Shown piece by piece: positions 10,440 to 37,453 of a stretch of 43,679 nt of DNA. The DNA comes from a virus. A program made the translations under genes and the position numbers. Location of the stretch: positions 1 through 43,679 of the IMG/VR virus record IMGVR_UViG_3300043811_000011; one strand, 5' to 3'. How positions within the stretch are numbered: the stretch's first letter is position 1; each line of letters starts with the position of its first letter. The notes beneath the pieces are model-generated. The model made no database searches. It had not been told where the DNA came from and saw only the letters and a program-made list of their open reading frames with translations.

Positions 10440-10566
10440 AGCGGATGAAGGCGAAATCAAGTGGCTGATGCATCGGCTGGAACAGATCGAGCAGCGTCTA
10501 GCCAACGTCGAGCAGTGGATGGATAGCAAGCTGGGGACAAAACTTGCCAAAGTTTCTGGAAGATAA
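10420..10566 (+). CDS. small coiled-coil protein
   Basis: This 48-residue ORF starts at ATG 10420, overlapping the previous gene by 20 bases. It reads as a heptad-like helix (EIKWLMHRLEQIEQRLANVEQWMDSKL) with a basic end. It may oligomerise. The function is unknown. Confidence 0.45.
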   Translation: MRAKLPKADEGEIKWLMHRLEQIEQRLANVEQWMDSKLGTKLAKVSGR

Positions 10567-19525: not shown

Positions 19526-20097
19526 TGGCTTCAACGCCTCAAGGCGTTAATACTCCGCTGGACGCATTGTTCAACGCGCCTGCCGTTGATAAGCAGGGGT
19601 ATTTCAACTTTCAGTGGAAGCAGTATCTTGTAGCGCAGAACGTAGGCCTAGGAGGAACAGCCCCGATCATTTCTCCCGTTCTAGGGGGTATTCCTACAGC
19701 ACCAACAGCCCCTCCTCTTACCAATAGCAAGCAAATCGCCACGACGCAATATGCAGATTCAGCGGTCGCGGTAGAAAAGACAAGAGCGGAAGCGCAGGAG
19801 ACGACTCTACAGGGAAACATTACCGCCGAGACGACGCGTGCCGAGGCCGCTGAAGCAGCTAACGCCGCAGCAATCACCGCAGAGACGGCAAGAGCAGAAG
19901 CAGCAGAGGCTTTACTTGCACCGCTTGCCAATCCGACGTTCACGGGGACGGTTAGCATTCCTACTCTCAATCTGACCGGGCCAACGGCTACTACCGCGAC
20001 CGCTGGAGCAGCTACATTACCTGCGAACCCGTTGGGTTTTTTTAACTGTATTAATGAGGCCGGAACGCCAGTGAAGGTGCCTTATTACTCGATATGA
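19525..20097 (+). CDS. trimeric tail needle/fibre protein (gp26 position)
   Basis: This 190-residue protein starts at ATG 19525 (TGATG overlap). A central coiled coil of about 50 residues has repeated TRAEA.E units (TTRAEAAEAANAAAITAETARAEAAEALLA), followed by LANPTFTGTVSIPTLNLTG, a motif common just before fibre shafts, and NSKQIATTQYADSAV, common in tail fibres. It occupies the position of the P22 tail needle gp26. It could be either the needle or a small fibre. Confidence 0.65.
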   Translation: MASTPQGVNTPLDALFNAPAVDKQGYFNFQWKQYLVAQNVGLGGTAPIISPVLGGIPTAPTAPPLTNSKQIATTQYADSAVAVEKTRAEAQETTLQGNITAETTRAEAAEAANAAAITAETARAEAAEALLAPLANPTFTGTVSIPTLNLTGPTATTATAGAATLPANPLGFFNCINEAGTPVKVPYYSI

Positions 20098-20552
20098 AGA
20101 TCGAGAGAACGCGGGATTGGGAAAGGGTGCGCAGCATCGTCACGCATCCCAAAGTCTACGGTGCGGTCACAGATGATTACTCACTCAGCGCGGAAGAATG
20201 GAAGCCCAACGAAACTGAGGATATTTGCTATTTGCTGGTTTCGGAGGATGAGAAGCCTTTGGGCGTGTTCATTCTCATTCCGCAGAATCACATCTGTTGG
20301 CAGGTCCATACCTGCTTCTTGCCGGAATCGTATGGAGACATTGCAAAGAGAGCGGGATTCGGGAGCATCCAGTGGGTTTGGGACAATACGGAGTGTTTAC
20401 GCATCGTCACAGAAGTGCCCATTTACAATCGCATCGCGCTCAAATATGCATTGGACTGCGGAATGAAAGAATACGGAATAAATCCGAAGTCTTATATGAA
20501 ACAGGGGAAATTGCGGGATGTCATACTTCTAGGGATTAGTAAATGCCAATAG
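20094..20552 (+). CDS. GNAT-like protein, P22 gp14 position
   Basis: This 152-residue protein starts at ATG 20094 (ATGA overlap). The sequence reads as an N-acetyltransferase-like fold: ICYLLVSEDEKPLGVFILIP strands, ICWQVHTCFLPESYG, then VPIYNRIALKYALDCGMKEYG near the end. Acetyl-CoA-loop glycine motifs are weak, so it may be catalytically inactive. In P22 the gene at this point, 14, encodes an assembly factor of similar size. Place and length suggest the same role. Confidence 0.65.
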   Translation: MKIERTRDWERVRSIVTHPKVYGAVTDDYSLSAEEWKPNETEDICYLLVSEDEKPLGVFILIPQNHICWQVHTCFLPESYGDIAKRAGFGSIQWVWDNTECLRIVTEVPIYNRIALKYALDCGMKEYGINPKSYMKQGKLRDVILLGISKCQ

Positions 20553-21433
20553 CAGCAGCAATCGGTATCGGTTCCGCAATCGGTGGAATCGGTTCGATCA
20601 TCTCAGGAAATACGCAGGCCGGTGCTGCTAAAAGTGCGGCGCAGTTACAGGCGCAAGAGGCCGCAAATTCCTTAGCATTTCAGAAACAGGAATTTGGAAC
20701 TCAGCAGGCTAATGAGGCTCCGTTTCTTCAGGCGGGCCAGGGCGCGGTCGGAGAACTCTCAGGTCTAACAAATACCCCAGGACAAGGGCTGCTAACACCG
20801 TGGACAGGCCAATTCCAAGCGCCATCAGCGCAGCAAGCTGCCGCAACTCCGGGCTATCAGTTTCAGCTACAGCAAGGAGAACAAGCACTCCAAAACTCAG
20901 CGGCAGCGCAGGGAGGTCTTTTATCAGGTGGAACAGCGACCGCGTTAGACCAATATTCACAAGGTTTGGCCTCGACTGACTATCAGCAAGTCTATAACAA
21001 CGCGCTTCAGCAATACCAGCAATCTTACAATCAGTTCGAGAACAACCAAGCCAACGAGTACAACCGTCTCGCGGGACTGGCAGGAACAGGGCAAGTATCG
21101 GCAGGGCAATTAGGACAAGAAGGCGCACAGGCCGCTGGAAATGTGGCGGGAATCAACGCTTCTGCCGGTCAGCAAATCGGCGGCAATATTAATCTGGCTG
21201 GAGCAGCGACCGCAAGCGGTTATGCTGGACTGACTAATTCTCTCGGTGCGGGTTCAAACAGCATCGGTCAGTTGGCACTGCTTCAGGCGCTTTATCCTAA
21301 CGCAAATCTGTTGGGCGGCCCAAGTGGTGCTCCGAATCCCAATAACCCGGCAAACGTTCCACAAGGGAACGATTATGGATCTTATAATAATCCGGTAACT
21401 TTTGACGCGAACGGTAATCCGGTGGGCGGATAA
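20543..21433 (+). CDS. DNA-ejection protein, gp7-like
   Basis: This 296-residue protein starts at ATG 20543, overlapping the previous gene by 10 bases. A hydrophobic, Gly/Ala-rich N-terminus (MPIAAAIGIGSAIGGIGSIISG) is followed by a Gln-rich helical body with TPGYQFQLQQGEQALQNSAAAQGGLLSGGTATALDQY, a segment typical of P22 gp7-like and related ejection proteins. It is probably stored in the head and injected to help form a channel through the envelope. Confidence 0.8.
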   Translation: MPIAAAIGIGSAIGGIGSIISGNTQAGAAKSAAQLQAQEAANSLAFQKQEFGTQQANEAPFLQAGQGAVGELSGLTNTPGQGLLTPWTGQFQAPSAQQAAATPGYQFQLQQGEQALQNSAAAQGGLLSGGTATALDQYSQGLASTDYQQVYNNALQQYQQSYNQFENNQANEYNRLAGLAGTGQVSAGQLGQEGAQAAGNVAGINASAGQQIGGNINLAGAATASGYAGLTNSLGAGSNSIGQLALLQALYPNANLLGGPSGAPNPNNPANVPQGNDYGSYNNPVTFDANGNPVGG

Positions 21434-22996
21434 ATGAGCAGCGTACCCCTAGCCGCGCTTTCGATAAACACAAAGCCTCCCGATCCCATTGAGGAATACG
21501 GGCGCGTCATGCAGCTTAAATCGCTGGCCGGACAGCAGCAGACGCAGCAGCTTCAGCAAGTGGGTTTGCAGCAAGAGAATCAGATGCGCGCGCAGCAATT
21601 GCAGGATCAGCAGGCGCAGACTGCGGCATTAAAGGATTGGGACGGCAAAAGCCTGGATGAATTGCCTGGATTACTTTTGAAACACGGTGGTTCGGCTACC
21701 GCAGTTTTCGGCATGAAGAATCAGATTCTCCAGCAGAAAACTGCACTGACGAAGTTACAGACCGACCAACTTGCCAATCAGAAGGGAATCAATGATCAGT
21801 TACTAGGAAAATTGCAAGCCGCCACATCTGGTGATGATGCAGGACTCCCGCAGCGCGTGACTCAAGCAACGCAGGATGCCGTGCAACAAGGATTGCTTGA
21901 CCCGCAACACGCACAAGGCATCCAACAAATACTGCAACAGAACCAAGATCCTAAAGCTCTGCGAAATCAGCTTTCCATCATGGAAAAAGGGTTGATGGGA
22001 CAGTCTGAGCAGTTTAATCAGGAGCAAAAGAATCGCGAAACGACGGCTCAAGAACAGACTGCCAGCGCCAAAGTACAGGAAGCTGGAATTGAGGCTCAAA
22101 AGTTCGGTGCGAGCCTTCCTGGTGGAATCTCCGAGAATCCCGAACAGAAATATTTGCGGATAAGTTCAGCGCAGCAGCAAGGACAACCCCTCAGCGATGC
22201 GGATAAGTCGTTCTTGCAGTCCTATAAGACCAATAAAACGATGGTTCCCGCTTTCAACTTCAATATGCAGAACGCGGGAGCGACGGGGCAGGCCGGGCAA
22301 CCATCAGTAATCGCAAAGGGACTCGCGGACGGTTCGATCAAATGGCAGGATGTGGTATCGAACCGCACGCCTATCGCAGTCAAACAGCAAATACTTGCAG
22401 AAGTAAAAGGCATCAATCCCAACTTCAATTCTGGAGATTTCAGCATCGAGCAAGGAGTGAAGAAAGAATTTACATCGGGCGATGCTGCCAAGAGCCTGAC
22501 TGCTTTCAATACCGCCATCGAGCATGCCAAGCAACTCAGCACAGCAACTGACGCGCTTAACAATGGCGATATACGCGGCCTAAACAAGATTGGAAACGCT
22601 CTCGGCTATCAATTCGGCAGCGATAAGACTACGAACTTCAACGTCATCAAGAATGCGCTCTCCGGTGAAATATCAAAGGTTTTCAAAGGCGGTGGTGCAA
22701 CGGATGCGGAGATTGAACAGGTACAAGGTCCATTCAATTCAGCCAACTCGCCGCAGCAACTCAAGGGGGCAATAGCTCAGGCGCAAGCATTGATGGAGTC
22801 TAAGCGTCAAGCTCTCCAGCAACAGTATCAGGCTGGTGTTAAGGCACAGCCTAATTTCGGCGGCGCTCAGCCGCAGCAGAATGCTCCAGTCAAAACCATA
22901 AGCGCGGCAGCAGTAGCACAGGCAGCGAAAGATCATGGCGTTTCCGTTGAGGAAGCGACTAGGCAAGCAAAGGCAGCCGGTTACGCGATTCAATGA
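21434..22996 (+). CDS. DNA-ejection protein, gp20-like
   Basis: This 520-residue protein (P22 gp20 is 471) starts at ATG 21434. It is highly Gln/Ala-rich with long helices (QQTQQLQQVGLQQENQMRAQQLQDQQAQ; NREETT-like charged stretches) and a mid-region lacking Cys. The ending VAQAAKDHGVSVEEATRQAKAAGYAIQ resembles a small helical domain. Order and composition support an internal virion protein of the ejection set. Confidence 0.75.
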   Translation: MSSVPLAALSINTKPPDPIEEYGRVMQLKSLAGQQQTQQLQQVGLQQENQMRAQQLQDQQAQTAALKDWDGKSLDELPGLLLKHGGSATAVFGMKNQILQQKTALTKLQTDQLANQKGINDQLLGKLQAATSGDDAGLPQRVTQATQDAVQQGLLDPQHAQGIQQILQQNQDPKALRNQLSIMEKGLMGQSEQFNQEQKNRETTAQEQTASAKVQEAGIEAQKFGASLPGGISENPEQKYLRISSAQQQGQPLSDADKSFLQSYKTNKTMVPAFNFNMQNAGATGQAGQPSVIAKGLADGSIKWQDVVSNRTPIAVKQQILAEVKGINPNFNSGDFSIEQGVKKEFTSGDAAKSLTAFNTAIEHAKQLSTATDALNNGDIRGLNKIGNALGYQFGSDKTTNFNVIKNALSGEISKVFKGGGATDAEIEQVQGPFNSANSPQQLKGAIAQAQALMESKRQALQQQYQAGVKAQPNFGGAQPQQNAPVKTISAAAVAQAAKDHGVSVEEATRQAKAAGYAIQ

Positions 22997-24300
22997 GCCA
23001 GACTAATACAATCGACTGGAGCAAGTACGAAGCCCCGCCAGCAGCGGCACCGTCGATAGACTTCACGAAATATGATTCCTCGGCCCCGCAGAAGAAATCT
23101 TGGCTCGATGAGGCTACAGATTTTGCGAAGGAATACTGGAATCAGGTGAATCCAGTCTCGGGAATTAAAGGTGCGGCGCAGGCTGTCGCCCATCCGGTTG
23201 ATACCTATATGGCTGATGCCTCCAATCGACAGGCTTTACTTGATAAAGCGCAAGATGCATTTAAGAAAGGCGACTACGGAGAAGGCGTTGCTCACGCGCT
23301 CTATGGGATTGTTCCTTTCCTCGGCCCACAACTTGACAAAGCTGGAACACAAATAGGCACAGGCGAAGCCGCAAAAGGCTTAGGCGCGACAGCGGGGATG
23401 GCTACAAACCTAATGGCACCTTCAATCCTAAAGAAGGCTGCCGTAAATCTCCCAGGCCCTATAGCAGATTATGCAGGGACAAAAGCAGCGGAATATTACA
23501 AGAGCGCATTGAAACCTTCCACTGTGGCCCAACCCGCGAGGGTAGCTAGTGCGGTTACTGGTGGACTGGAGAACGAAATTCCAGTCAGTGCAGGGGGATT
23601 GGAAAAGTTGGGCGATTTGATAGACGAACTAAACGGAAAGATTGCTGGAGAAATCGCGTCTCGCCCAGGAGCGACGGTCAATAAATATGCAGTGGCATCT
23701 CGTTTGGGTCAGACTGCTCAGAATTTCGCATCTCAAGTAAACCCTGACGCAGATTTGAACGCAGTAGCAAATAGCGGAAATGAATTTTTAACCAATCAGC
23801 CGACCAATATTCCAGCCTCGGACGCGCAGGCGATCAAGCAAGGCACCTATTCGCAGATTCGCAAAAACTACGGCCAGCTAAGCAGCGCCACCGTCGAATC
23901 CCAGAAGGCCCTTGCTCGCGGAATAAAGGAAGAACTCGCTAATCAGTTTCCAGAATTGAGCCAATTAAACGCTCAGGATTCACAGGCGATCAACCTCGAC
24001 AAGTTCCTTCAAAGGGCAGTGAGTAGGATTTCCAATCATCAATTAGTTGGAATCGGCACGCCAATCGTTGCGGGCACTGCGAAGGCTGTTACTGGGAGCA
24101 GTGGAGTAGCGGGAGTTGCGGGGGTAATGAAAGCGGTCCTCGATGACCCTTATATCAAGTCTAAAGTTGCAATCGCACTCAACAAAGCGTCGAAGGGGAG
24201 TATCAATCTTCCGGTGGGTCTTGCGAGATATGACGGTTATGTAAATGCGCTCGGGAACGCTTCCAACGCCGAAGCTCCGAACGATCAAGGACAGCAATGA
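22993..24300 (+). CDS. DNA-ejection protein, gp16-like position
   Basis: This 435-residue protein starts at ATG 22993 (ATGA overlap). The N-terminus has a repeated IDWSKYEAP / IDFTKYDSSAP motif common in podovirus internal proteins. A hydrophobic middle (GVAHALYGIVPFLGPQL, GLGATAGMATNLMAPS, GIGTPIVAGTAKAVTGSSGVAGVAGVM) could insert in membranes during ejection. It takes the place of P22 gp16. No peptidoglycan-hydrolase motif was seen. Confidence 0.75.
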   Translation: MSQTNTIDWSKYEAPPAAAPSIDFTKYDSSAPQKKSWLDEATDFAKEYWNQVNPVSGIKGAAQAVAHPVDTYMADASNRQALLDKAQDAFKKGDYGEGVAHALYGIVPFLGPQLDKAGTQIGTGEAAKGLGATAGMATNLMAPSILKKAAVNLPGPIADYAGTKAAEYYKSALKPSTVAQPARVASAVTGGLENEIPVSAGGLEKLGDLIDELNGKIAGEIASRPGATVNKYAVASRLGQTAQNFASQVNPDADLNAVANSGNEFLTNQPTNIPASDAQAIKQGTYSQIRKNYGQLSSATVESQKALARGIKEELANQFPELSQLNAQDSQAINLDKFLQRAVSRISNHQLVGIGTPIVAGTAKAVTGSSGVAGVAGVMKAVLDDPYIKSKVAIALNKASKGSINLPVGLARYDGYVNALGNASNAEAPNDQGQQ

Positions 24301-26306
24301 AATATTTCGTTGCGAGATACGCGAAGCACCCGATAACGATTGCTTCTATCATTGTGGCGATTCTATTCCTTTTCTGTCTCCCAGCGCAAGCCCAGACGCC
24401 CGTACAACTCTCGCCCGTAGCTCACCAGCAGTTCTTTAATGCAAGCGGCCAGCCCTTAGCAGGCGGCTTCCTCTATACCTACGCGGCCGGAACCACGATG
24501 CCTCTAGCGACCTACGTTGAATCTACAGGCACATATCTGAACAGCAATCCAATCGTTCTGGACGCAGGGGGCTTCGCCACAATTTACCTCGGGATGCAAG
24601 CATATAAATTCTGCGTGGCGGATCAGAACAATGTTCAACAGTGGTGCGTCGATAATATCAATCCTTTCCAGATCGTAAGCGGAAATACATTTCTGGGGCC
24701 AATCACCTTCGCAGGAGTAATGAACGCGACCGCAGGCGGATCGTTCGCAGGAACATTTACAGGGAATCCAATCTTCAGCGGCAATCCTATTTTTAGCGGA
24801 GCACCGAACTTTACAGGTGGAGCCACGCTTACCGGCAATGCCATTTTACAGGGCGTCATCTATCCGTACATTGATCCGATGGCAGCACAGTTCGGGGCGA
24901 AGTGCGATGGTATAACTGATGACTCAACAGCTTTGCAGGGCGCGGGGAATGCATCCATTGCGGCAGACGTTACGCTCCGACTTCCACCGGGAAAGACTTG
25001 CTCTTATGCCACCACACTCACTTTCGCCTCGCCCATCAAGATCGAAGGGTACTACGTCGTCGGCAGCGGCACGACCGTTCCACCTAACCTAAAGTTCACT
25101 GGCTCAGGGACGGCTATCAACATCAATAATGGAACCACGCTTATCTATAACGTCTCGCTAAATAATTTTTATCTCCTCTCGCAGAACATCATCACGACCG
25201 GAATTGCCTGCACCTACTGCAACACGCTAAATGTGCAAGGCGTTCAAGTCGGCGGGACAGAGGCGTCGCTTCCGACAAACGGGATGACGAATGCCTTTGA
25301 CTTCAGCAATACGGCAGGAATCATCGCTCGGGACAACCAGACCTTCAGCGCGAATACAGCATTCAAGTTGACGAACTGCACCAACGTCAATGTGGATGGC
25401 GGGGAGTATGGAGTACATAATCAAGTCTTTCTGCTCAATGGAACCAATGCGGGAATTGAGATCCACGACATTGTAGACGCGGAACTCTCGGATTACTTCA
25501 TCGACATAGACGACAGCCTTGGCTCGCTCGTGACGATTGAAGGCTTGCACGTCCATAACAATTTCCTGCTTTTCAATGGCTCGGCTTATTCCCATCAGTA
25601 CGTTATGAATGTGGCGAATGCCGGTTCCAATTTAATGCAGGCATGGAATGTGGTGTTTTCCCAGAATACCGTAGATTGCTCACCCTGTGTTGGTGACTAT
25701 CCTTTCCACATCAACATTTCAGGGAGCACGAACGCCTCCACAACTTTTAACGCAACGATAAAGGACAACTATCTCGCCGGGTATTCCGCTGGCGGGATCA
25801 CGGCGAATAGTGCCAAGGCCGTTGTCACCTGGGAGGGCAACTATAACACTGCGTCGGCGGACACGAATGGAACGGGAACCTTTACCGACATTACCTATAA
25901 CAACGGCCTGAAAACTAGCAACGTAACGTCCACTTCGCTCTTAAGCGTTAAAAGAATCCTTGCCAATCAAGGGACGGCCCAAGTTTCGGGGAATGTCGCG
26001 CTCTCCACAAGTCCAACTTGGGGATCTGGAGCCAGTGTCACTTCCGTCGCGGGTCAAGACGCGGGATTCAGCATAGGGGTCACCGCCGGAACAAGCCCTG
26101 CCGCTGGTCCTTTTATGACTGTCACGTTTGAGGACGGAGCATGGACACCGAGTGCTCCGATCTGCATCGTTAGCAGAGCTGACGGTAACGCTCCTCTTTC
26201 AAATCAATGGAATATCACAAGCCTTAGTTCCACCCAGATCGTCTTGCAGTTTTCAGGAACTCCCGTAGCGAGTAGCCAATATGTCGCATCGGTGATTTGC
26301 CAATGA
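24297..26306 (+). CDS. exported tailspike-like protein with beta-helix
   Basis: This 669-residue protein starts at ATG 24297 (ATGA overlap). A classic Sec signal peptide is visible: basic start (R7, K10), hydrophobic core 13-29 and an A-Q-A site before Q33. Residues of about 35-122 form a tail-fibre anchoring domain (LSPVAHQQFF..SGQPLAGGFLYTYAAGTTMPLATY...NPIVLDAGGFATIYLG). From about residue 195, a pectate-lyase-3 type entry (AQFGAKCDGITDDSTALQ) starts a right-handed beta-helix with repeated short strands. It is probably the host-polysaccharide-binding or -cleaving spike (gp9 position). The leader peptide is unusual for a virion protein. Confidence 0.8.
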   Translation: MKYFVARYAKHPITIASIIVAILFLFCLPAQAQTPVQLSPVAHQQFFNASGQPLAGGFLYTYAAGTTMPLATYVESTGTYLNSNPIVLDAGGFATIYLGMQAYKFCVADQNNVQQWCVDNINPFQIVSGNTFLGPITFAGVMNATAGGSFAGTFTGNPIFSGNPIFSGAPNFTGGATLTGNAILQGVIYPYIDPMAAQFGAKCDGITDDSTALQGAGNASIAADVTLRLPPGKTCSYATTLTFASPIKIEGYYVVGSGTTVPPNLKFTGSGTAININNGTTLIYNVSLNNFYLLSQNIITTGIACTYCNTLNVQGVQVGGTEASLPTNGMTNAFDFSNTAGIIARDNQTFSANTAFKLTNCTNVNVDGGEYGVHNQVFLLNGTNAGIEIHDIVDAELSDYFIDIDDSLGSLVTIEGLHVHNNFLLFNGSAYSHQYVMNVANAGSNLMQAWNVVFSQNTVDCSPCVGDYPFHINISGSTNASTTFNATIKDNYLAGYSAGGITANSAKAVVTWEGNYNTASADTNGTGTFTDITYNNGLKTSNVTSTSLLSVKRILANQGTAQVSGNVALSTSPTWGSGASVTSVAGQDAGFSIGVTAGTSPAAGPFMTVTFEDGAWTPSAPICIVSRADGNAPLSNQWNITSLSSTQIVLQFSGTPVASSQYVASVICQ

Positions 26307-27838
26307 AAACATTCCTTAGATTGCTGATAATTCTTTCCTGTTTTGCCCCGGCAGCATTTGGTCAAGGCGTGCGTGCGGGAGACAACTATCCCATCATCTC
26401 AGGTCAGATTCCTGGCGGCCCTCTCTACTCCGTGCCGAACGCGGTCATCAACTTTTGCGCCTCACCTAATGTCAATGTGCCCTGCGTGAATCGAGCGACG
26501 ACATATACAGACATCACGCTTGGGACACCATGCCCGTCTAACCTTCCGATAGTTTTAGCTGGTACAAATACCTGCACAGGGACAACAGACGGCTACGGCC
26601 AATGGGGAGTTTGGGTGGCACCGGGAGCCTATACCTTCACCGTGACGATCCCCGGAGGCGCAACACTCGGCCCTTACACAGTGACTTTGACAGCCGGGGG
26701 CGGGGGAACCTCGGTAAGCGTCAACGGCACGACCGTCCCGAATCCTGACTTCAATAATACATTGCCAGCGGCAGGATCAGGATTCATAAATTGCAACTGG
26801 TTCTTTGGCGGAAGCGCAGTCAGTCTAGCTTGTCCCACTGGGAACGGAGCAACTCAGTTCCTAGCAGGAAACGGCAACGCTCTGACTTCTACCTTTGCCA
26901 CGAGCGCAGGAAGCGCGACGACGGCGACAAGCGCGACAACGGCGACGACCGCAGGGGCGCTTTCCGGCTCTCCTACTCAATGCAGTGGGGCAACTCCAGT
27001 AGCGAAAGGAATCGCTGCGAACGGAAATGCAAACTGTGTGGCAGACGTTCCGGCACTTACCGCGACCGCTCGGGTAATTCCCAATGCTTACACTCCCGGC
27101 TCTCCTGGCACTTGGGGTACTACCACGCTGGGCCAGTGTCCGGGCGGCGCAGGAGCAACACTCAACACAAACAATGAAATAACGAATACCAGCTATACCT
27201 ACCAAGCCTCAGACTTCTCCTGCTTCATGCACAGAAATGCAACGTCGGCAATGACCGACACGATGCCCGCCCCGAACACGACAGGATTCTCCACTCCAAC
27301 AGCAAATTATTACGGGAGCATCGGAAACTTCACGGCGCTGTATACGGATGTAATCACCACGACCGGAACCTTCGCTTGCCCGATCTGGTGCAACTCCACG
27401 ACCCTGACCCTGCTTCCCGGCTATACCGCGACATTCTACTCACCCGATACGACCTCGACATGGCAGGTGGAAGTAAAGAGCTATCCGAGGACGTTTGGGA
27501 TGCTGGCAGACGTAGTGCAGACAGTGGCAAGCGCGAGCCTGCCTTCTAGCGGCACGATTTTCACCGCCCCCAGTACCGGAGTATATCGGACAACAACTTA
27601 TGTCGCATGTACTGGAAGCGCAAATACCGTAACTCTTACATTGAATTGGACCGATGCCTTTACCGGTGGCCCTGGAGCTGACGGCGAAGGCAGTCAGACT
27701 TGTGGGTCTTCTGGATTCGGAAATCCATACACGGGTGTTCACAACATCGCATCAGGTGGGACGCTCACATATATCCTCAGCAAATCTGGAACGGTAGTTA
27801 ATGGCAATTTTCACATTATAGTAGAAGGCCCATTCTAA
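26303..27838 (+). CDS. exported fibre-like protein
   Basis: This 511-residue protein starts at ATG 26303, overlapping the previous TGA. The signal peptide MKTFLRLLIILSCFAPAAFG precedes Q21. An N-terminal beta domain (YPIISGQIPGGPLYSVPNAVINFCA...GVWVAPGAYTFTVTIPGG) resembles a carboxypeptidase-regulatory-like or fibre-anchor sandwich. A low-complexity Ala/Thr linker (SAGSATTATSATTATTAGALSG) and a C-terminal jelly-roll-like domain with SSGTIFTAPSTGVYRTTTYVACTG...GPGADGEGSQTCG follow. It contains many Cys. It is likely a second adhesin. Confidence 0.75.
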   Translation: MKTFLRLLIILSCFAPAAFGQGVRAGDNYPIISGQIPGGPLYSVPNAVINFCASPNVNVPCVNRATTYTDITLGTPCPSNLPIVLAGTNTCTGTTDGYGQWGVWVAPGAYTFTVTIPGGATLGPYTVTLTAGGGGTSVSVNGTTVPNPDFNNTLPAAGSGFINCNWFFGGSAVSLACPTGNGATQFLAGNGNALTSTFATSAGSATTATSATTATTAGALSGSPTQCSGATPVAKGIAANGNANCVADVPALTATARVIPNAYTPGSPGTWGTTTLGQCPGGAGATLNTNNEITNTSYTYQASDFSCFMHRNATSAMTDTMPAPNTTGFSTPTANYYGSIGNFTALYTDVITTTGTFACPIWCNSTTLTLLPGYTATFYSPDTTSTWQVEVKSYPRTFGMLADVVQTVASASLPSSGTIFTAPSTGVYRTTTYVACTGSANTVTLTLNWTDAFTGGPGADGEGSQTCGSSGFGNPYTGVHNIASGGTLTYILSKSGTVVNGNFHIIVEGPF

Positions 27839-27852
27839 GAGGAGAGCGCAAG

Positions 27853-30060
27853 ATGAAAACTAAACTAATCCTGCTCACGTTTCTGTTGCTCGTAGGCGGA
27901 TGGCGTGCGCAGGGGCAGGGTAGCAATATCACGTCATCCGGTACAACATGCGCGACATCAAACGCATGCGCCGCGGCTAATCTCAATCCCGGTAGCACGG
28001 GTAGTGTTACGTTTACCATCTCTGGCACCTTCAGCGCGACCTTGCAGTTTGAGATCCTTGCTGATGGCGCCGAGGCGAATAAATCAGCGGTGAATTGCTA
28101 TCCGCCAAACTCCACGACCGCGGCAACGAGCACGACAGCCGCAGGAACATGGACTTGCGGAGTGCCCGGAGCACAAGTCTTTCGGGTGCGCTGTTCGGCC
28201 TACACAAGCGGAACGGCGGTTGTAGTTATCAATGTCTCAAACAATGTATCTCTTTCGTCTTTGACGGCGGGGGGCGGGGGAGGGGGCGGAGGAGCACCAA
28301 CTGGCCCTGCTGGTGGAGACTTAAGCGGAACATATCCCAACCCAACCGTAGCGCAGATCAACGGAGCGGCAGTACCTGTCTCAGCCAAGCTGCTTGGTTC
28401 AAACTCCAGCCAGCAAGCTATCGCCGCTGCCCTTTCGAGCACTCACTTATATGTGGGCAACTCCTCTAACTTGCCCGTGGACGTTGCCCTCAGTGGCGAC
28501 TGCACAATGGCTAATACGGGAGCCATAACATGCACAAAGACAAGTGGAACTTCCTTTGCCCCAAGCGCGACGACAGATACAACAAACGCTACAAACATTT
28601 CTAGCGGGACTCTTGCGGTAGCTAGACTTCCAACGGCCATTCCCATTGCGAATATCGGTAGCGCAGGATTGAGCGCGACACTCCCCCTTGTGATCGGCCT
28701 TACTGGGGCGATAAACACGACAAGCATTACCGGATTTCGTTATGGAACTGCCGGGGCAGCAGATGCGGCGGCTACAGCGGCACAAGCTGCGACTCTGATT
28801 CAGGGGCTAACAGGCTGCAATACGGCAGGTTTTGTATTCACTCCCCAGGCCAGCGATTGCGTAGCGGTGAGCGGGACAGGAACGGTTACGAATGTAAGCG
28901 GAGCCGGGCTTATCAGCACCACGAATCCGACGACTACTCCGGTTGTAGCGTGTGCGACGTGCGTGGGAACGGGACAGGCCAACACTTACACCACTGGAGC
29001 ACAGGATTTCACCGGAGCTACTTCCACTCTTGTTTCAACGCAGACGGCAGGTGATTCCAGCACCAAGGCAGCTAATACTGCATTCGTCACCACGGCAGTC
29101 AACAACGCCATCGCGGGCGTGAATCCAGCCGTAGCGGTTCTGGCAGCATCCACGGCCAATGTGACGGGTACCTATACTTCAGTGGGAAGTGGAATAGGGG
29201 ACACATTTACCGTGACGGCGACCGGAGCGTTTACCCTTGACGGAATCGCGATCAACACTATCGGCCAGCGCGTGCTCTTAAAGAATCAGACGGACGGAAC
29301 GCAAAATGGAATTTACACAGCAACCGTTGTGGGAGCTTCTTTAGTGTCTCCAGTTTTTACTCGCGCGCTTGACTACGACCAACCGTCCGACGTGAACAAT
29401 ACCGGAGCAATTCCGGTTCAAAGTGGCACGGTCAACACAACAACGAGCTGGCTGCTAACTTCTAACATTACGAGCATCGGTCCCGCTGGTAGCGCATTCA
29501 CTTATACTCAATTTTCAGTAAATCCAACGACTATTGCCACTGGATATTCCATACCTTCCGGTTGCGACCAGAACGGCGGTACGTGGACCAATCAAACTGT
29601 CGTGAACACAACGACTGCAACAACGATGGTTTCTTGCACCATTCCCGCTTCCTATGTGGGGCTTAACCAAGTTCTTGTAGTAGACGCTTCAGGGATTTTG
29701 GGCACGCAGGCAAGCGCAGGGAATTTTACCATCGCAATAACATATGGTGGTGCCACGATTTGCACCACTCCCACGCAGGCTATCACCTCTAGCGTATCGA
29801 CGCCCAAGTCATGGACTCTGCATTGCGAGATGCAGGGCACGGCGGCAGTTGGAACTAGCGTTGCCGTGTATGGCACGGGTAATTTTGTTTACGGAAACGC
29901 GGGCACAACCTCAATCACATGGGGTATGCCCAACGCTAGCACGGTTACGGCAGTTAACACGAGCGCCTCGGGAACCTTAGCACTTGTCGCCACTTGGGGA
30001 ACCGCATCAGCAACGAACAGCATTACGGGTCAGGTATTCCGGCTTCACAGAGAAAACTAG
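27853..30060 (+). CDS. exported long tail-fibre-like protein
   Basis: This 735-residue protein starts at ATG 27853, with AGGAGAG upstream. Signal peptide MKTKLILLTFLLLVGGWRAQG precedes Q22. The body carries familiar fibre motifs: a poly-Gly linker (GGGGGGGG at about 142-149), GGDLSGTYPNPTVAQING, ATNISSGTLAVARL, STQTAGDSSTKAANTAFVTTAVNNAI, and a module of the type GDTFTVTATGAFTLDGIA...GQRVLLKNQTDGTQNGIYT. Its C-terminus is a beta domain. Such modules are standard in virion fibres, making the N-terminal export signal striking. Confidence 0.75.
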   Translation: MKTKLILLTFLLLVGGWRAQGQGSNITSSGTTCATSNACAAANLNPGSTGSVTFTISGTFSATLQFEILADGAEANKSAVNCYPPNSTTAATSTTAAGTWTCGVPGAQVFRVRCSAYTSGTAVVVINVSNNVSLSSLTAGGGGGGGGAPTGPAGGDLSGTYPNPTVAQINGAAVPVSAKLLGSNSSQQAIAAALSSTHLYVGNSSNLPVDVALSGDCTMANTGAITCTKTSGTSFAPSATTDTTNATNISSGTLAVARLPTAIPIANIGSAGLSATLPLVIGLTGAINTTSITGFRYGTAGAADAAATAAQAATLIQGLTGCNTAGFVFTPQASDCVAVSGTGTVTNVSGAGLISTTNPTTTPVVACATCVGTGQANTYTTGAQDFTGATSTLVSTQTAGDSSTKAANTAFVTTAVNNAIAGVNPAVAVLAASTANVTGTYTSVGSGIGDTFTVTATGAFTLDGIAINTIGQRVLLKNQTDGTQNGIYTATVVGASLVSPVFTRALDYDQPSDVNNTGAIPVQSGTVNTTTSWLLTSNITSIGPAGSAFTYTQFSVNPTTIATGYSIPSGCDQNGGTWTNQTVVNTTTATTMVSCTIPASYVGLNQVLVVDASGILGTQASAGNFTIAITYGGATICTTPTQAITSSVSTPKSWTLHCEMQGTAAVGTSVAVYGTGNFVYGNAGTTSITWGMPNASTVTAVNTSASGTLALVATWGTASATNSITGQVFRLHREN

Positions 30061-30061
30061 C

Positions 30062-33000
30062 TTGCGAAAGCTCTTATTCCTCTTTCTGGTTCTCGCCGCA
30101 CCTCTCGGTGCGCAGCAGTGGAACCAACTTCGCTCAAATAGTACCTTTCCTTCGGCTACACCGATTACCGGAACTTATACGGGCTGTCTTGTAAATCTAG
30201 TAAGCCATCTTTGTCCCTCGCCCGGAACGAATTTCACTCCCTACGTTGTCCCTTCAGGAATTTTCAGCCAGCAGCCGATGATTTACGATCCGTTCGACAA
30301 GGGCGGCATCGGATACCTTGCGAGCAGTTCTTGTGCGTCGGGCGAATGGGGCTGCGGGATATTCTTTCAGAATGTTGGCCAAGACGACGGAACCTCGCAA
30401 ACTGGGGTACATGACGGCTGGGAGCTTTTCAATTCCTCTCCCTTCGTTCAATTAAACGGTACTGGGCTTGCTACCGGGACGGCCATTTCTTCAATCACTC
30501 AATCTGGAACCACCGTTACCATTGTCTTTGTCGCAGCCTCCGCCAGGTACGTTCCAACCGGAGCCGTTTTTCTAGTTCAGAACTCTTTAGTTACTGGCGC
30601 GAATGGGCAGCAAACCGTAGTCGGTAGCAATTGCGGAGTTTCCGGGGTCAATCCAGTCTACCAGCCTCTTTGCACGACTATCACTTACACCGTAATAACC
30701 TCGGCTTCAGCTTGTCAGAACACGGGAGGCACTGGCGGATGCTCGGCATTGGTAGGCGGCACCACATACGTCACTGGCCCAGGCCAACAAGCAAACCAGC
30801 CCTACCGTGAGCACACGCAAGGCTGCGCATTCGATACCAACAGAAATTTCTATTGGTGCACTACCGGAAGTGGCGACATTGAATCCCTGCCGGGGCAAAT
30901 CATCGTCGGGCACGTGGCGACCTATCAGCTTTATTTTGCCTATGAGAACAACTCGCCAACAGCGTCTTGTAATGCTGGTGGAATCACGGGACAAAAGTGT
31001 TGGTACTGGCAAGCGGTCTGCGGATTCACGACATCCATTTACTGCGAGGGTGGGCCAGGGAGCAATACAGCTCAGACTGTCCACGCGGCTACAGGAAACG
31101 GCTTGCCCTGTTCGACGGGCGCAACTCCGAATTGCGGCTATAAATTCCCGTTTATGACGTTCGAGCGGATTTGCGACTGCCTCATCATCATCGGCGGACA
31201 GTGGAACTCTACAATTGAGAACGAGATTCTTGTCTATTATATTGCCACGCAGACTTGGAAAAACATCACGCCGCCCTCCGGTTTTCATGCGCGCTGGGCG
31301 CAAGGCGATTCCAAGCTCCCGTCGCTCGGCGCATTCAGTCATCAAATACTCATATTCGGCGGCCAGTTCGGACAAGCCCTAACCCCAGGAGTATCAAACC
31401 CCGCTGGGTGTCCGCCTGGGCCTAGTCCTCCGCAAAGTTGTCTAAACGATACTTGGGTTTATGACACGATAGCTCAAACGCTGACGCAGACTATATCTTC
31501 AGGATGCACTTTAGCATGTCCTAGCAGCCCCCCTCCGAACCTAAGCCCGATGATGGATTGGGACCAATTCATCGGGAGAGTAGTTCATGTAGACAATCAG
31601 GGCACAGCAACAGGAACGAATACCTGCAACACAACGACTTGTGCTCACGTCTGGTTCTACGATCCCGTTTCGACAGATGCTAGTTTCGGCTGGACGGATA
31701 TGACCGCTGCTGCAATTACGGCTGGAACCTTGGGTTATAGCGGCTCACCTGCGATGATTCAAGGAACAAGCCCTCTCGCCTATAATTCCACGTGCTTTTT
31801 CAACGTTGCCACGAATCAGTTTGTATGTGACATCCGACCCGGAGGCGTTTCCGCTTCACAAGTTTGGACGCTGAACATGCCGATAGCGATAGGCGTACAA
31901 GCGAAGGAATGGCCCGGAGGCTGTACCTCTTGTTCGTCTCCGCAGCCCGTAGCGACAAGCAGACCGGCAAATGCTCCGGTCAACACAATTGGCTGGCAGA
32001 TTCCCGATGAATGGAACGTCACGCCGACCTCTCCGTGCACAGGAACGCCAATCGGATACGGATGCACGACGGCACAGCTTTCTCTTGTGAATTGCTCCAC
32101 GAGCGCCCCAGTCAACGGCCAGTTCTCAGCCTCTACTCTTTGGGCCGATGGCAATTTCAAGGGGATATGGATTAACACGCAAGACCCTGCGTTCACGGAA
32201 GGTACGCTCGATACCACGAATGTTTGCCTGACGCAAGTAGCGAGCGGGGGAGGGAATCTCCCTTCAACTCCGATGATTACCTGCTCCAGCGGTTCTCCGG
32301 TTGCAGCAACGTCTCTGCCTTGGAGTCTCTACAACGCAACCGTGTGTGCTTCGGGGATCTACATCGTCAATACAGGGGCAGGCGGGGCGACGTTCACAAT
32401 TCACCAAGCCAACAACGATTTGATTCACCAGCTCATAACAAATACAAGCTCTACAACGCTTGTCTTGGGAAGTAGAACCTTTGCAAGCGCAGACGGCTTC
32501 GTGATGAACGGGCCGACACACGCGAATTTTGCGCTTAATTCAATCCTATCTGTGTCCTGCACAAATCCACCGGCGATGACTACGATTGCCTCGGGAACGA
32601 CAGACCCCTGCACCACACCTTACGAGTCTTTCTTAGATTCGGCTTCGACGTGCGGAATCTTACGGAATGGCGGGATGCTCGGAGAACTCGCCTGTCAGGG
32701 AAACCTGCAAAACAGCAATGGGGATAATCTTCAGCAGTACGGTGCGCATTATGAGTTTTGGCAGGGACACACTGACTTCCATTTGGAAGCAACTCCGCAG
32801 AACGCGCAACTCTTTACTCAACCATCTCCATACAACGCGGGAGACGTGCAAAGCGCAGGAAAGGAATTCTCTTCTTTTGAAGCAAGGCTGACTCCTAACC
32901 TTGCCAATGGAAACCGATCAATTACCTTCGGAAACGGGCCGACAACGACGGCGACAGCCACGCTGGTAACGGGAAGCGATACGGCTTTTCTAACACAGGG

Positions 33001-36000
33001 ATATACGCCGCTTGATTTGTGGGCTGACTTCAATGCGCCAAACTGTTTTACATCAAATCTTCCGGGCAACGTGCACAGCAGTGATCCTGACGCTTGCGTG
33101 ACTTCGCCTATCTCCCGTACAGGAACGACCTCAGCATGGACCTATACGACACCTACAGGATTCGTAATCGCCTCTACGCAGACCATCTTTGGAACAGCGA
33201 CAGGCACGAACGCTCCGGGTTGGGCAATGCAAGTCGATACGGCAGGAAACGGAGTGGAGTTTGGCATAAGCCGAATGGCCCAGCACTGGCCTGCTTCGTT
33301 GGAGTTTCTATCACAGGGAGCGGAGATTCGCATTGGCCTAATGCCGGACCAGAGCTCTGCCGTGATGAACCTTGCCACGCCGCAATCCTACCTAACACCC
33401 TGGACCGAGTACTACCCGATCAAAGACATCTGGATTAACTTCTTCACGTCCGCACCTTCTTCGCCGTCTGACACTTTCGTTGAATATCAACAGGCGCTTG
33501 TAGGGCGCTTCCCGTACTTCACCTATAACCCGATGCTTCCGACGCCGATACCGAATCCCTGCGCTGAGGATTTGTACTACATCAACCTTTCGACGCAGCC
33601 CAGCTTCGCCTCTGGAGCAACTTCTGCGAATGCCTGCAAATTGCTCGCCGATACCGGATGCTCAACAGGATGTTTTGGGCAGAACGCCACAATGCTGACC
33701 ACAATGTATAACTTCCCGTCCTATATCTGGAACGGTGGTGGACCGAACCAGCAAGACGGTGCAATGGCTGCTTATTATCAGTGGCTGCAACGGGGCTGGA
33801 ACGGCACGGAAATGGTTCTTTCAGGCTCACAGCCGGGAAAACTGCAATGGTCTGAGAACTTCTATCAAGACCAGATAGGAAAGGGCTGCGTACCGCGCTC
33901 AGACTTCGCAGGGAATTGGCGGGGAGTCTCCTACTCAAACAATATTTTCGCGGTCAGTGGATTTCCCAACAAGACGACGACCTTCAATCTGGGCCAAAGG
34001 CAGAACTGCGACGGTGATTTGAATAACGATCACTACCATCACGAGGGCACCACTGCCTTCTATCTTCTTACTGCCAACTACTGGATTGGACAGCAGGTAA
34101 TTGCACAAGGACTGGTGGACTTCGCCGTGGGCACAAACTTTCCGTATAACCATCCGGCATTGCTTACAGGTCACTCCGTGTGCGCTGCCACTCGCTCTTG
34201 CGCTCACGCGCTCGGCGTTGGCTCAATGATTCTCGCTCTCGCCTGCGGAATGCACAATCCTATTGCCTATTCAGGAACCTCTTGCCAATCGACCGCGCTT
34301 GCTCCGATGGAGAGTATCGCCGCTTATGGCTTGCTCGCCCCGGCATTCGCGTCGGGATATTCTCTTCCGCCGTACTCCATCACGGAGCTTTCAGACTGTC
34401 AGGCCATGCCGCAGAGTGGCTCTGGCTCGGGACATTCAATCTATCCTTCGCAATGTTCAACAGGGCAAAGCATTCGGGGGTACTTTCTAACCGGACTCAA
34501 TCCTAACGGTTCTGCCGATGATTGCGCTGGATCAACGCCCCCATGTAATGCGCCTGTGAATTACCACGTTGCCAAAGGCTTCATGAATCAGTCGGCGCAG
34601 TTCGACCTGCTTCTCTTCGATGAAACAGAGAACCTTTTCCGTGGGCCTCTTTTCGCGGCATCGCAGACGGTATTAAACGATGGACTTGCCACAAACGTGA
34701 GCGTTCCTATAACCGATGCAGGGATTCAGCAGAGCATGCTTGGCTCGGGATACTGGTTCCTTCACGAAGATTTTGTTTCCGGTTCAGGTCCATCCACTTC
34801 GGGCGTGCCCTATCAGACCTACCCCGGCTATGCAAATACCACGCCGCCATGCAACACGAACAACGACTGCTCACGAACTACCGGACTGGGAAACTTCTTC
34901 GGGGAGAACTATACCCAATGGGCCTCTGTCTGCCGCGAGACTAACTCAATGGTTGACCTGAACCTGCAAAGCATTCAACCTTCATGGGAGCTTTACATCG
35001 AACGCATGGGAAGCGGTGCTTACTCCGAACTCTACTCCCCGGAAATGATGTACACGGACAACTGCATCATCAACCACAACCTAGCTAATCCGAACTCTTA
35101 CACGCTCGGCCCTGTTCCTGTCTTGCAAGACATCCCCATCAGCCCGTCATCTTGCTCAGGATCGTGCACCATCACATGGACGCCGCCAGTAGGATTGACT
35201 TCCATAAACGGAACCACCTATCGCCTGACTTATTCTCAGAACTCGATCATCAACTGGCAGCAATTCTATCCGAACTGCACAGGCACCTACACGGAAGGAA
35301 CGTGTCCGCTGGCGGCTTCGATTACGAGCGCCCCTGATGGCAGCGGAGGGTGGAACCTCGGGCAAGACCCCGGCTCGAATGTGCAGTCTTGGTTCTCGAC
35401 AACTCCGATCAATGACCCTGCGTTGCAGACTGCGAATGGTTCTTACTCCGTCACGCTTCCTTCTGGCACGTGGAATCTGAAACTCAAGGCTTATGCCCAA
35501 GCGCCGAATACGATTTACGTCTCGCAATCAGGCGGGGCGTATTCAGGAGTGGGAACGGTCTGCCCTGGACAGACGACCATCAGCGTTGCGAACTTCAACA
35601 CAGGTTCTTTCTGGGCAGCCACAGCCACACCCGGAAAGATTTCACCGGGAGCCTTGGTCTATTTCTGCGGAACGCTCGCTTCGGCAGTCAATGTTAATCT
35701 CCTGAAATGGCAGGGCAGCGGCCTAAGCGGAAGTCCGATCACCTTCATGGGCGATACCGGATCAATCCTTCAATCTCCAGCATTCCCGGCTGGTGCGTCC
35801 GGTGGTGGAATCAACCTCAACGGACAGTCCTACATCACCTTCAACAACGTCACTGTTCATAACACGCTCAACGGTACGTCTACGAATACTTGCCCCGGTG
35901 GACCGTGCACTTCTCAGCAGACCTCGAACGCTTGGAACCTGCAAAACTCCTCGAATATCGTCATCGAAAACTCCACCTGCGAGAACCTCTACATCCACGT

Positions 36001-37453
36001 TTCAGGCGACCCGATCACCGGAGAACCAGACACGAGCAATATCAACTGTGTGTGGGCCAACGCTTTCGGATCAAACATCACGATCACGCATAACACGATG
36101 CATGACATCGGATGGGCCATCTTCTTTCTCGGCTCACAGACAGGCACAGCGGGACCGACGATCACGAACAACAATATTTACAACTATGTGCACGGCGTGG
36201 CGTTTGGAATAAATGCTACCGGACAAATTGCGCAGAATATCCTCATAGACTCGAACCAACTTCACGACACGGCTAACTGGACAGATGGCGGTTGCTCTGG
36301 AACCGGCTGCCAAGACCACATTGACGGAATCCATACCTATGTTCAGGACGGCGGAACGAACGGCGGGACCATCAACGGAATGCAGATTTCTAATAACTGG
36401 TTCTACGGAACGTGGCCGCAGAACACCACTGCCGCTCTTTACTGTCAGGGCGGGCAAGGCGGCACGCAGGGGGTGCAGGAAAACTACTCGGTATTTAACA
36501 ATGTCTTCGATGTCTCAGGGCAATCGGCAATCGTAGGCGGCAATGGAGCAATGTCCTGCTATCCGTGGACTGGAACGAACATTCTGGCAAATAACACCTT
36601 CATCGGAGACTCCACGACCGTACACCAATGCCTCACGATTCAAGGGCAAGCCGGGGAAGTCCTCTACATGGAGAACAACCTGTTTGCCAACTGCGGAGTG
36701 GACATCCTGAGCGGTACAGGTTTAGGCGGTCCTCCTCCGGTATTAAACTGGCTAGTAAACGGCTATGAGAGCAACACTGGTCCTAATCCTTGGCAGTGGA
36801 ACGGAGTCAATCAGAGCACGTTCTCAGGCTTTCAATCGGCCTGTGCCTGTGACGCTTCGCCGTCTTTCAATCAATCAGCACTTGACGTAAACTTGACGAC
36901 CTACATCCCGAACGGGGGGTCAAGTGCCATCGGAATCGGGGCGAATCTATCCTCGCTTAACTCAGGTCTTGCTACGGATAGCACGTTAGGCGGGACCGTA
37001 ACTCCTACTACTCGCCCCGGCTCGGGAGTGACGATAGGTGCGCGCAATGGTACAGGCTCTGGCGGCGGCTCGGTAACTCTTACACCGACAACGAATACTT
37101 TCCCATCTGAACTCGTGGGCGTAACCAGCCCTGCGGCGAGCTTCACGTTGACCAACACCAAATCCGCGTCACTAACCGGGATTACTCCGACGCTTTCAGT
37201 TGGAACGCAGTTCACCATCTCTTCAAACGGATGCAGTAGCGGAACGCTGGGACCGGGGAACGTCACACCGACCAGTTGCGTTATTCAGGTCACTTTCACG
37301 CCAACGAGCCTAGGCCTCAAAACGGATACGCTATCGGTTGCGGATTCAGATGTAACCAGCCCGCAGACTTCGGCCCTAGCGGGTACTGGGATTCCGCCTT
37401 CAGTAGGTTTCCCAAGCAACCCTTTGACGCCGCCCGGTATGGCGGTCAGATAG
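30062..37453 (+). CDS. giant exported multidomain protein (2463 aa)
   Basis: The frame is open from 29984, but the hydrophobic leader RKLLFLFLVLAAPLGA before Q18 starts at TTG 30062, two bases after the previous gene's stop. Domains in order (approximate residues): N-terminal Cys-rich beta region; Kelch-like repeats (365-480: LIIIGGQWNSTIENEILVYYIATQTWKNI, QILIFGGQFG); further beta domains; an all-helical, lyase-like region with DHYHHEGTTAFYLLTANYW (about 1325-1550); a short Ig-like part (SCTITWTPPVGLTSINGTTYRLTY); a parallel beta-helix (about 1880-2280, repeated NITITHNTMHD, PTITNNNIYNY); and a choice-of-anchor-D domain (about 2340-2447). Many Cys fit an oxidising location. It is probably an adhesin/depolymerase. 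Cleavage and virion attachment are unknown. Confidence 0.75.
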   Translation: MRKLLFLFLVLAAPLGAQQWNQLRSNSTFPSATPITGTYTGCLVNLVSHLCPSPGTNFTPYVVPSGIFSQQPMIYDPFDKGGIGYLASSSCASGEWGCGIFFQNVGQDDGTSQTGVHDGWELFNSSPFVQLNGTGLATGTAISSITQSGTTVTIVFVAASARYVPTGAVFLVQNSLVTGANGQQTVVGSNCGVSGVNPVYQPLCTTITYTVITSASACQNTGGTGGCSALVGGTTYVTGPGQQANQPYREHTQGCAFDTNRNFYWCTTGSGDIESLPGQIIVGHVATYQLYFAYENNSPTASCNAGGITGQKCWYWQAVCGFTTSIYCEGGPGSNTAQTVHAATGNGLPCSTGATPNCGYKFPFMTFERICDCLIIIGGQWNSTIENEILVYYIATQTWKNITPPSGFHARWAQGDSKLPSLGAFSHQILIFGGQFGQALTPGVSNPAGCPPGPSPPQSCLNDTWVYDTIAQTLTQTISSGCTLACPSSPPPNLSPMMDWDQFIGRVVHVDNQGTATGTNTCNTTTCAHVWFYDPVSTDASFGWTDMTAAAITAGTLGYSGSPAMIQGTSPLAYNSTCFFNVATNQFVCDIRPGGVSASQVWTLNMPIAIGVQAKEWPGGCTSCSSPQPVATSRPANAPVNTIGWQIPDEWNVTPTSPCTGTPIGYGCTTAQLSLVNCSTSAPVNGQFSASTLWADGNFKGIWINTQDPAFTEGTLDTTNVCLTQVASGGGNLPSTPMITCSSGSPVAATSLPWSLYNATVCASGIYIVNTGAGGATFTIHQANNDLIHQLITNTSSTTLVLGSRTFASADGFVMNGPTHANFALNSILSVSCTNPPAMTTIASGTTDPCTTPYESFLDSASTCGILRNGGMLGELACQGNLQNSNGDNLQQYGAHYEFWQGHTDFHLEATPQNAQLFTQPSPYNAGDVQSAGKEFSSFEARLTPNLANGNRSITFGNGPTTTATATLVTGSDTAFLTQGYTPLDLWADFNAPNCFTSNLPGNVHSSDPDACVTSPISRTGTTSAWTYTTPTGFVIASTQTIFGTATGTNAPGWAMQVDTAGNGVEFGISRMAQHWPASLEFLSQGAEIRIGLMPDQSSAVMNLATPQSYLTPWTEYYPIKDIWINFFTSAPSSPSDTFVEYQQALVGRFPYFTYNPMLPTPIPNPCAEDLYYINLSTQPSFASGATSANACKLLADTGCSTGCFGQNATMLTTMYNFPSYIWNGGGPNQQDGAMAAYYQWLQRGWNGTEMVLSGSQPGKLQWSENFYQDQIGKGCVPRSDFAGNWRGVSYSNNIFAVSGFPNKTTTFNLGQRQNCDGDLNNDHYHHEGTTAFYLLTANYWIGQQVIAQGLVDFAVGTNFPYNHPALLTGHSVCAATRSCAHALGVGSMILALACGMHNPIAYSGTSCQSTALAPMESIAAYGLLAPAFASGYSLPPYSITELSDCQAMPQSGSGSGHSIYPSQCSTGQSIRGYFLTGLNPNGSADDCAGSTPPCNAPVNYHVAKGFMNQSAQFDLLLFDETENLFRGPLFAASQTVLNDGLATNVSVPITDAGIQQSMLGSGYWFLHEDFVSGSGPSTSGVPYQTYPGYANTTPPCNTNNDCSRTTGLGNFFGENYTQWASVCRETNSMVDLNLQSIQPSWELYIERMGSGAYSELYSPEMMYTDNCIINHNLANPNSYTLGPVPVLQDIPISPSSCSGSCTITWTPPVGLTSINGTTYRLTYSQNSIINWQQFYPNCTGTYTEGTCPLAASITSAPDGSGGWNLGQDPGSNVQSWFSTTPINDPALQTANGSYSVTLPSGTWNLKLKAYAQAPNTIYVSQSGGAYSGVGTVCPGQTTISVANFNTGSFWAATATPGKISPGALVYFCGTLASAVNVNLLKWQGSGLSGSPITFMGDTGSILQSPAFPAGASGGGINLNGQSYITFNNVTVHNTLNGTSTNTCPGGPCTSQQTSNAWNLQNSSNIVIENSTCENLYIHVSGDPITGEPDTSNINCVWANAFGSNITITHNTMHDIGWAIFFLGSQTGTAGPTITNNNIYNYVHGVAFGINATGQIAQNILIDSNQLHDTANWTDGGCSGTGCQDHIDGIHTYVQDGGTNGGTINGMQISNNWFYGTWPQNTTAALYCQGGQGGTQGVQENYSVFNNVFDVSGQSAIVGGNGAMSCYPWTGTNILANNTFIGDSTTVHQCLTIQGQAGEVLYMENNLFANCGVDILSGTGLGGPPPVLNWLVNGYESNTGPNPWQWNGVNQSTFSGFQSACACDASPSFNQSALDVNLTTYIPNGGSSAIGIGANLSSLNSGLATDSTLGGTVTPTTRPGSGVTIGARNGTGSGGGSVTLTPTTNTFPSELVGVTSPAASFTLTNTKSASLTGITPTLSVGTQFTISSNGCSSGTLGPGNVTPTSCVIQVTFTPTSLGLKTDTLSVADSDVTSPQTSALAGTGIPPSVGFPSNPLTPPGMAVR

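Follow-up and report, generated by a model that had tools for sequence, protein, structure and literature searches.

The window analysed here is the whole virus record IMGVR_UViG_3300043811_000011 of IMG/VR (43,679 bases). Directly 3' of a P22-like morphogenesis module it contains a cassette of four genes, named here by their start positions (24297, 26303, 27853, and 30062). All four products carry predicted Sec signal peptides (leaders), and the first, by its head-binding domain and gene position, is a P22-type tailspike. The features of the cassette are listed below; a slash marks the predicted cut by signal peptidase I (SPase I).

24297..26306, + strand: P22-type tailspike, 669 amino acids (aa), predicted Sec leader, mature start at Q33
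24297..24392, + strand: Sec/SPase-I-type leader of 24297, ...LPAQA/Q, which 130 of 150 other spikes sharing the domain lack
24393..24668, + strand: head-binding (virion-attachment) domain with the Cys106/Cys117 pair, assigned by PDB profile, AlphaFold2 (AF2), and Foldseek
26303..27838, + strand: second predicted exported protein, fibre-like, 511 aa, leader 26303-26362, ...AAFG/Q21
26363..26689, + strand: QGVRxGD N-domain of 26303, ~109 aa, four conserved Cys
27853..30060, + strand: third predicted exported protein, fibre-like, 735 aa, leader 27853-27915, ...RAQG/Q22
28981..29553, + strand: tail-fibre module, residues 377-567 of 27853, matching PDB 9efk 'orf22' (18 chains), E=1.8e-18
30062..37453, + strand: fourth predicted exported protein, 2463 aa, 78 Cys, TTG start, leader 30062-30112, ...PLGA/Q18

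From the translations, the leaders are MKYFVARYAKHPITIASIIVAILFLFCLPAQA for 24297 (cut before Q33), MKTFLRLLIILSCFAPAAFG for 26303 (before Q21), MKTKLILLTFLLLVGGWRAQG for 27853 (before Q22), and MRKLLFLFLVLAAPLGA for 30062 (before Q18). They were evaluated with a rule-based signal-peptide scorer that considers the basic n-region, the hydrophobic core, and the -3/-1 rule; the +1 residue has no weight, except that Pro is barred. When run on annotated E. coli K-12 sequence (50 kb), the scorer recovered OmpA, AppA, CsgI, and GfcA/C/D, with hardly any cytosolic proteins among its hits. The basic n-region, hydrophobic core, and small -3/-1 residues of Sec/SPase-I substrates were present in all four cassette leaders. 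Their scores (11.9, 10.4, 8.6, and 8.3) were the top four in the window; the next-best gene, the lipoprotein-like 39298, reached 8.0, and all others stayed below 7. Thus, 4 of 4 cassette genes were leadered versus 0 of 37 other window genes (Fisher p = 1e-5, with a cut-off chosen after the scores were seen). For 26303, the best site was three residues upstream (APA/AFGQ), and AFG/Q was likewise permitted. Four leaders of this type, each leaving Gln (Q33, Q21, Q22, and Q18), had been proposed in the first-pass annotation, and translation and scoring agreed with it. It had also called all four mature proteins Cys-bearing, and indeed they contain 11, 14, 15, and 78 Cys after leader removal, versus 0-4 in the cytoplasmic virion proteins of the window. 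An AAGGA-type ribosome site lies 5' of the 24297 ATG, and the ribosome site of 30062, which starts with TTG, is weak. The region around the mature end of the window spike holds no start codon preceded by a Shine-Dalgarno match, and for this reason both a start-site error and dual-start (leadered plus leaderless) forms of this spike were rejected.

The ~90 residues after the leader of 24297 gave a profile match to the head-binding domain of the cyanophage Pam1 tailspike (7eeq, E=4e-13); the same profile also matched the Pan3 tail spike (9vyg). The AF2 model of this domain had a predicted local distance difference test (pLDDT) value of 86. When it was searched with Foldseek, the head-binding domains of Pam1, Pan3, P22, and Sf6 came far ahead of all else (2vky, 1lkt, 7sg7). 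These profile and fold matches indicated that a virion-attachment domain lies directly behind the Sec-type leader. The full-length AF2 model of the spike reached a pLDDT of 38, too poor to judge the trimeric β-helix body.

Spikes with the same head-binding domain were collected by scans of IMG/VR and bacterial genomes, which gave at least 150 distinct ones besides that of the window. In ten reference phages, at most a few residues separate the initial Met from the domain, which begins at the position matching Q33 of the window. Among the 150 spikes listed, 130 were leaderless, starting with M-A-V or M-T-V at the junction, and 20 had a leader directly before the domain; sequences entered the set through their similarity to the window and L134, so 20/150 should not be taken as a frequency in the population. 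Because the leaderless spikes start at the Q33 position, the leader is a precise addition. The first-pass annotation had held that homologues starting after the hydrophobic stretch would speak against export. Such homologues did occur (130 of 150), yet as a separate majority beside the 20 leadered spikes, indicating that the leader was acquired as an extra trait and that the start has not been mis-called. An in-frame start lay within six codons of the mature end in 12 of the 20 leadered relatives, and none of these starts had a Shine-Dalgarno match. Gln was found at a permitted +1 in 19 of 21 leadered spikes (window included), a count that was read by eye and in which the scorer's top site sometimes lay a few residues upstream. 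The exceptions, L234 and L243, belong to a separate spike lineage; they have leaders but neither +1 Gln nor head-binding-domain Cys, and are probably from other hosts.

The genes behind the spikes followed the same division. The first two genes 3' of the spike were leadered in 13 of 25 cases behind leadered spikes versus 4 of 156 behind leaderless ones (p = 4e-10; this and the other comparative p-values overstate independence, as related phages share ancestry). The phage contigs L003, L016, and L134 repeated the order of internal proteins followed by the leadered spike and its neighbours. On a tree of the head-binding domain, which has about 100 columns and is weakly resolved, the leader needed 7 changes versus 18.8 with shuffled labels, and the starred branches forced at least 2. 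With up to 7 changes, at least 2 of them forced, on such a tree, a single origin of the leader was not favoured.

The Cys content differed in a similar way. Cys made up 2.33% of the leadered cassette proteins; in cytoplasmic virion proteins from the same phages the share was 0.32% (a 7-fold difference), and the median was 1.9% in leadered versus 0.37% in leaderless spikes. The head-binding domain contained 0 Cys in 8 and 2 Cys in 13 of the leadered copies (n = 21), but never 1, whereas the leaderless copies had 0 in 103, 1 in 25, and 2 in 1 (pairs versus singles, p = 2e-9). The pair was arranged as K-F/I-C...QWC in the window, L016, and L003, and in a second way (mostly GGC...NCA) in ten others, indicating two or more separate origins of paired Cys, at different positions. 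In the AF2 model, the window pair (Cys74 and Cys85 in mature numbering) is located on neighbouring strands, 71-76 and 82-89. Cys pairs that track the leader are consistent with export into an oxidising compartment.

We also compared the constraint on the domain. Leaderless head-binding domains have 20 conserved columns, and in the leadered ones each of these kept its majority residue, 17 of them at ≥85%. The entropy profiles of the two groups correlated (rho 0.84) and their means were equal (1.59 versus 1.60). With the constraint intact, a relic head-binding domain in the leadered spikes was unsupported. Since these residues are still constrained, the leadered spikes probably still join virions, although this evidence is indirect.

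Upstream of the cassette, the window module is P22-like and consists of terminase (phrog_2), portal, scaffold, coat, Hc3, and a fibre-like adaptor, followed by a head-morphogenesis/acetyltransferase-like gene and a DNA-ejection protein. This gene order is that of Xanthomonas phage PBR31 (Hc3, tail-spike adaptor, acetyltransferase, internal proteins A-C, tail spike). The four cassette genes lie directly 3' of the internal proteins, in the tail spike slot of PBR31, and this synteny confirmed the P22 tailspike position named in the first-pass annotation. No second spike candidate was seen elsewhere in the window. The relevant module genes are as follows.

18038..19525, + strand: head-closure Hc3 (P22 gp10-like), leaderless
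19525..20097, + strand: tail-spike adaptor equivalent (PBR31 orf027 by position), leaderless
20543..24300, + strand: three internal/ejection protein genes (20543, 21434, and 22993), leaderless, directly upstream of the cassette

The product of 20543 matched DNA ejection family phrog_598, and 21434 and 22993 were assigned by the position of the PBR31 internal proteins. The Hc3 gene served to locate relatives. Further small leadered genes were found beside Hc3, away from the cassette (L003:1521-2021, L134:1576-2457, and L001:about 2180-2924). After the cassette, a small protein (37463-37831) is hydrophobic at its N-terminus and carries the fibre motif VNGKTG; it was not scored as a signal peptide because the basic start is missing. 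The lipoprotein-like gene in the lysis region (39298-39879, export score 8.0) has an RR-containing twin-arginine (Tat)-like N-terminus and a lipobox-like FLGC. Both record ends (1-100 and 43480-43679) share a short GC-rich repeat (GATGCGGCGAGG and variants).

The other three cassette proteins were less uniform. For 26303, family, phage, and PDB searches gave no match of note. Its QGVRxGD N-domain was common to L016, L133, and L134, and more distantly to L149, in all cases leadered and with Q at +1. In L149, the cassette genes after the leaderless spike (9139 and 13537) are leadered with G or A before the Gln, and one is a QGSRFGD relative of 26303. An overlapping part of the 27853 module matched tail fibres of Synechococcus and Methylophilales phages. 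Virion modules are thus present in two of the four proteins, as had been proposed: the head-binding domain in 24297 and the fibre module in 27853. For 30062, phage and PDB searches gave no match; a Kelch motif was found at residues 370-405, a weaker one at 455-491, and a weak C-terminal ASH-like domain at 2362-2435. By these signatures, 30062 looks more like host exoproteins.

The nearest cellular relatives were in Acidobacteriota, not Bacteroidetes, which indirectly points to an Acidobacteriota host. Leadered relatives were found in two Terriglobus-type Acidobacteriota genomes (T. albidus and G245), one of them upstream of an endolysin gene. The Terriglobus-type regions surveyed (G245/G003) were L106-L108, L114-L125, and L261-L280. 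On a 6.4 Mb Acidobacteriota contig, L106:6592-16510 (G245 5989000-6008999) has internal-protein-like genes, three consecutive leadered genes, and then an endolysin gene; it is likely a prophage remnant. Near a contig end of T. albidus, orphan leadered genes for fibre-like proteins or exoproteins of 407-1211 aa were observed (L137:5265-8681, 9907-13254, and L136:2123-9490), one of them related to 26303. Leader conservation in Acidobacteriota relatives, a check named in the first-pass annotation, was found in the two Terriglobus-type genomes but not in a P22-like phage of Acidobacteriota bin G197, whose spike is leaderless; a phylum-wide trait was rejected on this ground.

Gln was at +1 in 37 of 88 (42%) predicted exported proteins of the two Terriglobus-type genomes versus 1 of 12 in E. 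coli (p = 0.03), where the sample was small and a looser count gave 2 of 9. A glutaminyl cyclase (PF05096) was matched in the Terriglobus-type genomes G003 and G245 (E about 1e-95); it was searched for in G197 and G222 and not found. Given the 42% and the cyclase, the four Gln of the window are best read, from these sequence counts, as a Q-rule-like habit of the host and not as a special adhesin feature. No report of such a habit in Acidobacteriota was found in the open-licence literature searched. In the Bacteroidetes Q-rule, signal peptidase exposes Gln (PMC5837995, PMC10653852), and Acidobacteria are unnamed in the main text of one of these papers (PMC5837995). Phages of Porphyromonas gingivalis carry Q-rule genes matching their Bacteroidetes host (PMC10367356). 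The window resembles this system in the Gln exposed by signal peptidase and in phage genes that follow the host rule. It differs in its nearest cellular relatives, which are Acidobacteriota, and is hence Q-rule-like only. The P. gingivalis phage genes also differ from the window spike in that their function is undescribed there and they are not established as spikes (PMC10367356).

Export of the cassette proteins, as predicted from sequence, is strongly supported. An exported adhesin had been suggested in the first-pass annotation, and the suggestion gains from the leader recurring in 20 spikes at the same junction, from leaderless relatives starting there, and from Cys pairs tracking the leader. 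Joining of virions after export is likely; it follows from the intact constraint on the head-binding domain and from the lack of another spike gene seen in the window. The best explanation, to which we give a probability of roughly two in three, is that in these soil phages the spike would mature in the periplasm and join cytoplasm-built particles at lysis. A fuller version also appears moderately probable. It holds that these are two-compartment virions with cytoplasmic heads and with Sec-exported, disulfide-bonded, N-terminally capped spikes that dock at lysis, the leader having been gained more than once before an unchanged head-binding domain.

In this mechanism, the window phage would be short-tailed and P22-like, and the cassette genes (24297, 26303, 27853, and 30062) would be translated as preproteins, with Sec leaders fused ahead of otherwise ordinary spike and fibre proteins. 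SPase I would remove the leader and leave a mature spike with the same starting point as ordinary spikes, and the paired Cys suggest adaptation to an oxidising compartment. Periplasmic folding, disulfide formation, and possibly cyclisation of Gln1 would follow, while heads with portal, adaptor, and Hc3 would be put together in the cytoplasm. Holin and endolysin would then open the cell, and in the final step of assembly the spikes would encounter the particles and attach to them by the conserved head-binding domain. The P22 tailspike is added last in assembly, and its addition works in vitro. A likely reason for export would be Cys-rich, host-like surface domains that fold poorly in a reducing cytoplasm.

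Several observations weigh against this explanation. The spike of L149 is leaderless though its cassette neighbours are leadered, indicating that spike export is dispensable in at least one relative, and the spike of the phage in bin G197 is leaderless as well. The head-binding domain lacks Cys in 8 of 21 leadered spikes, and the mature window spike has an odd number of Cys (11). Its body outside the head-binding domain was modelled without confidence (pLDDT 38). Large exported trimers would also have to find virions before diffusing away. The proteins might instead be exported without being virion parts, acting as free depolymerases, receptor blockers, or superinfection-exclusion proteins with a leftover head-binding domain. 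Export is equally well supported under this alternative, which could also draw on the L149 arrangement, on 26303 and 30062 having no recognisable virion module, and on the resemblance of 30062 to host exoproteins (Kelch, ASH). We consider it rather unlikely, because the constraint on the head-binding domain is equally strong in spikes with and without a leader, unlike in a relic, and because virions would be left without a receptor-binding protein, no other spike gene being seen in the window. Both roles might also be combined, with exported spike attaching to virions while excess spike and the larger neighbours act alone in the extracellular matrix. The mixed cassette, one spike with a head-binding domain plus proteins without it, would suit this combination, which we hold improbable.

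It is very improbable that the hydrophobic N-termini are start-site errors or anchors that remain uncleaved, with the proteins retained in the cytoplasm. Tailed-phage spikes are normally cytoplasmic, and the ribosome site in front of the TTG start of 30062 is indeed weak. However, 20 other spikes also have junctions of the cleavage type, paired Cys go with the leader, Cys is enriched 7-fold, and around the mature N-terminus of the window spike no other start codon has a ribosome site. A host exoprotein operon, misjoined to a phage contig or newly captured and without a phage role, would account for the similar orphan leadered proteins in Terriglobus genomes. It is already contradicted by synteny, the same order being present in the independent phage contigs L003, L016, and L134, and the first protein bears a phage head-binding domain; we give it almost no credence.

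Compared with known systems, the spike of the leadered cassette is a variant of the P22-type tailspike, and the precise addition of a Sec leader is the new part. It resembles the spikes of P22, Sf6, cyanophages Pam1 and Pan3, and PBR31 (orf034) in the profile and fold of the head-binding domain and in gene position after the internal proteins. It differs in that the reference spikes and 130 of 150 others are leaderless, whereas the window group adds a predicted cleavable Sec leader and often a Cys pair. No precedent for a signal-peptide-bearing tailspike was found in the open-licence literature searched. Filamentous phage coat proteins have signal peptides, and like the cassette proteins (by prediction) they are virion proteins that cross the inner membrane with a cleaved leader; their virions assemble at that membrane, whereas tailed phages assemble in the cytoplasm. 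BcepC6B gp19 of a Burkholderia phage and PBR31 orf035 (phrog_11393, tail fiber protein) are like the cassette in having a predicted signal peptide on a fibre-like gene. Both lie between the spike or fibre gene, which they follow directly, and holin, and have two conserved Cys. They differ in showing no relation to the head-binding domain and in a +1 residue that is not Gln, and the spike is leaderless. The leader is conserved between these two genes of cultured Proteobacteria phages (L307:2501-3574 and L127:24674-25483), indicating that leadered fibre-like proteins occur also in Proteobacteria phages. The PBR31 paper mentions a signal peptide for gp40 only (PMC10975493).

Tailed-phage spikes have been taken as cytoplasmic, and a Sec-routed spike, if true, would be a new assembly route. 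Phages could then use disulfide-bonded, host-like surface domains, and the envelope of the infected cell would carry phage adhesins before lysis. For annotation, signal-bearing phage genes may be virion parts and not auxiliary genes, and phage leaders ending in A/Q could help host assignment. Recombinant spikes of the leadered kind may need periplasmic expression.

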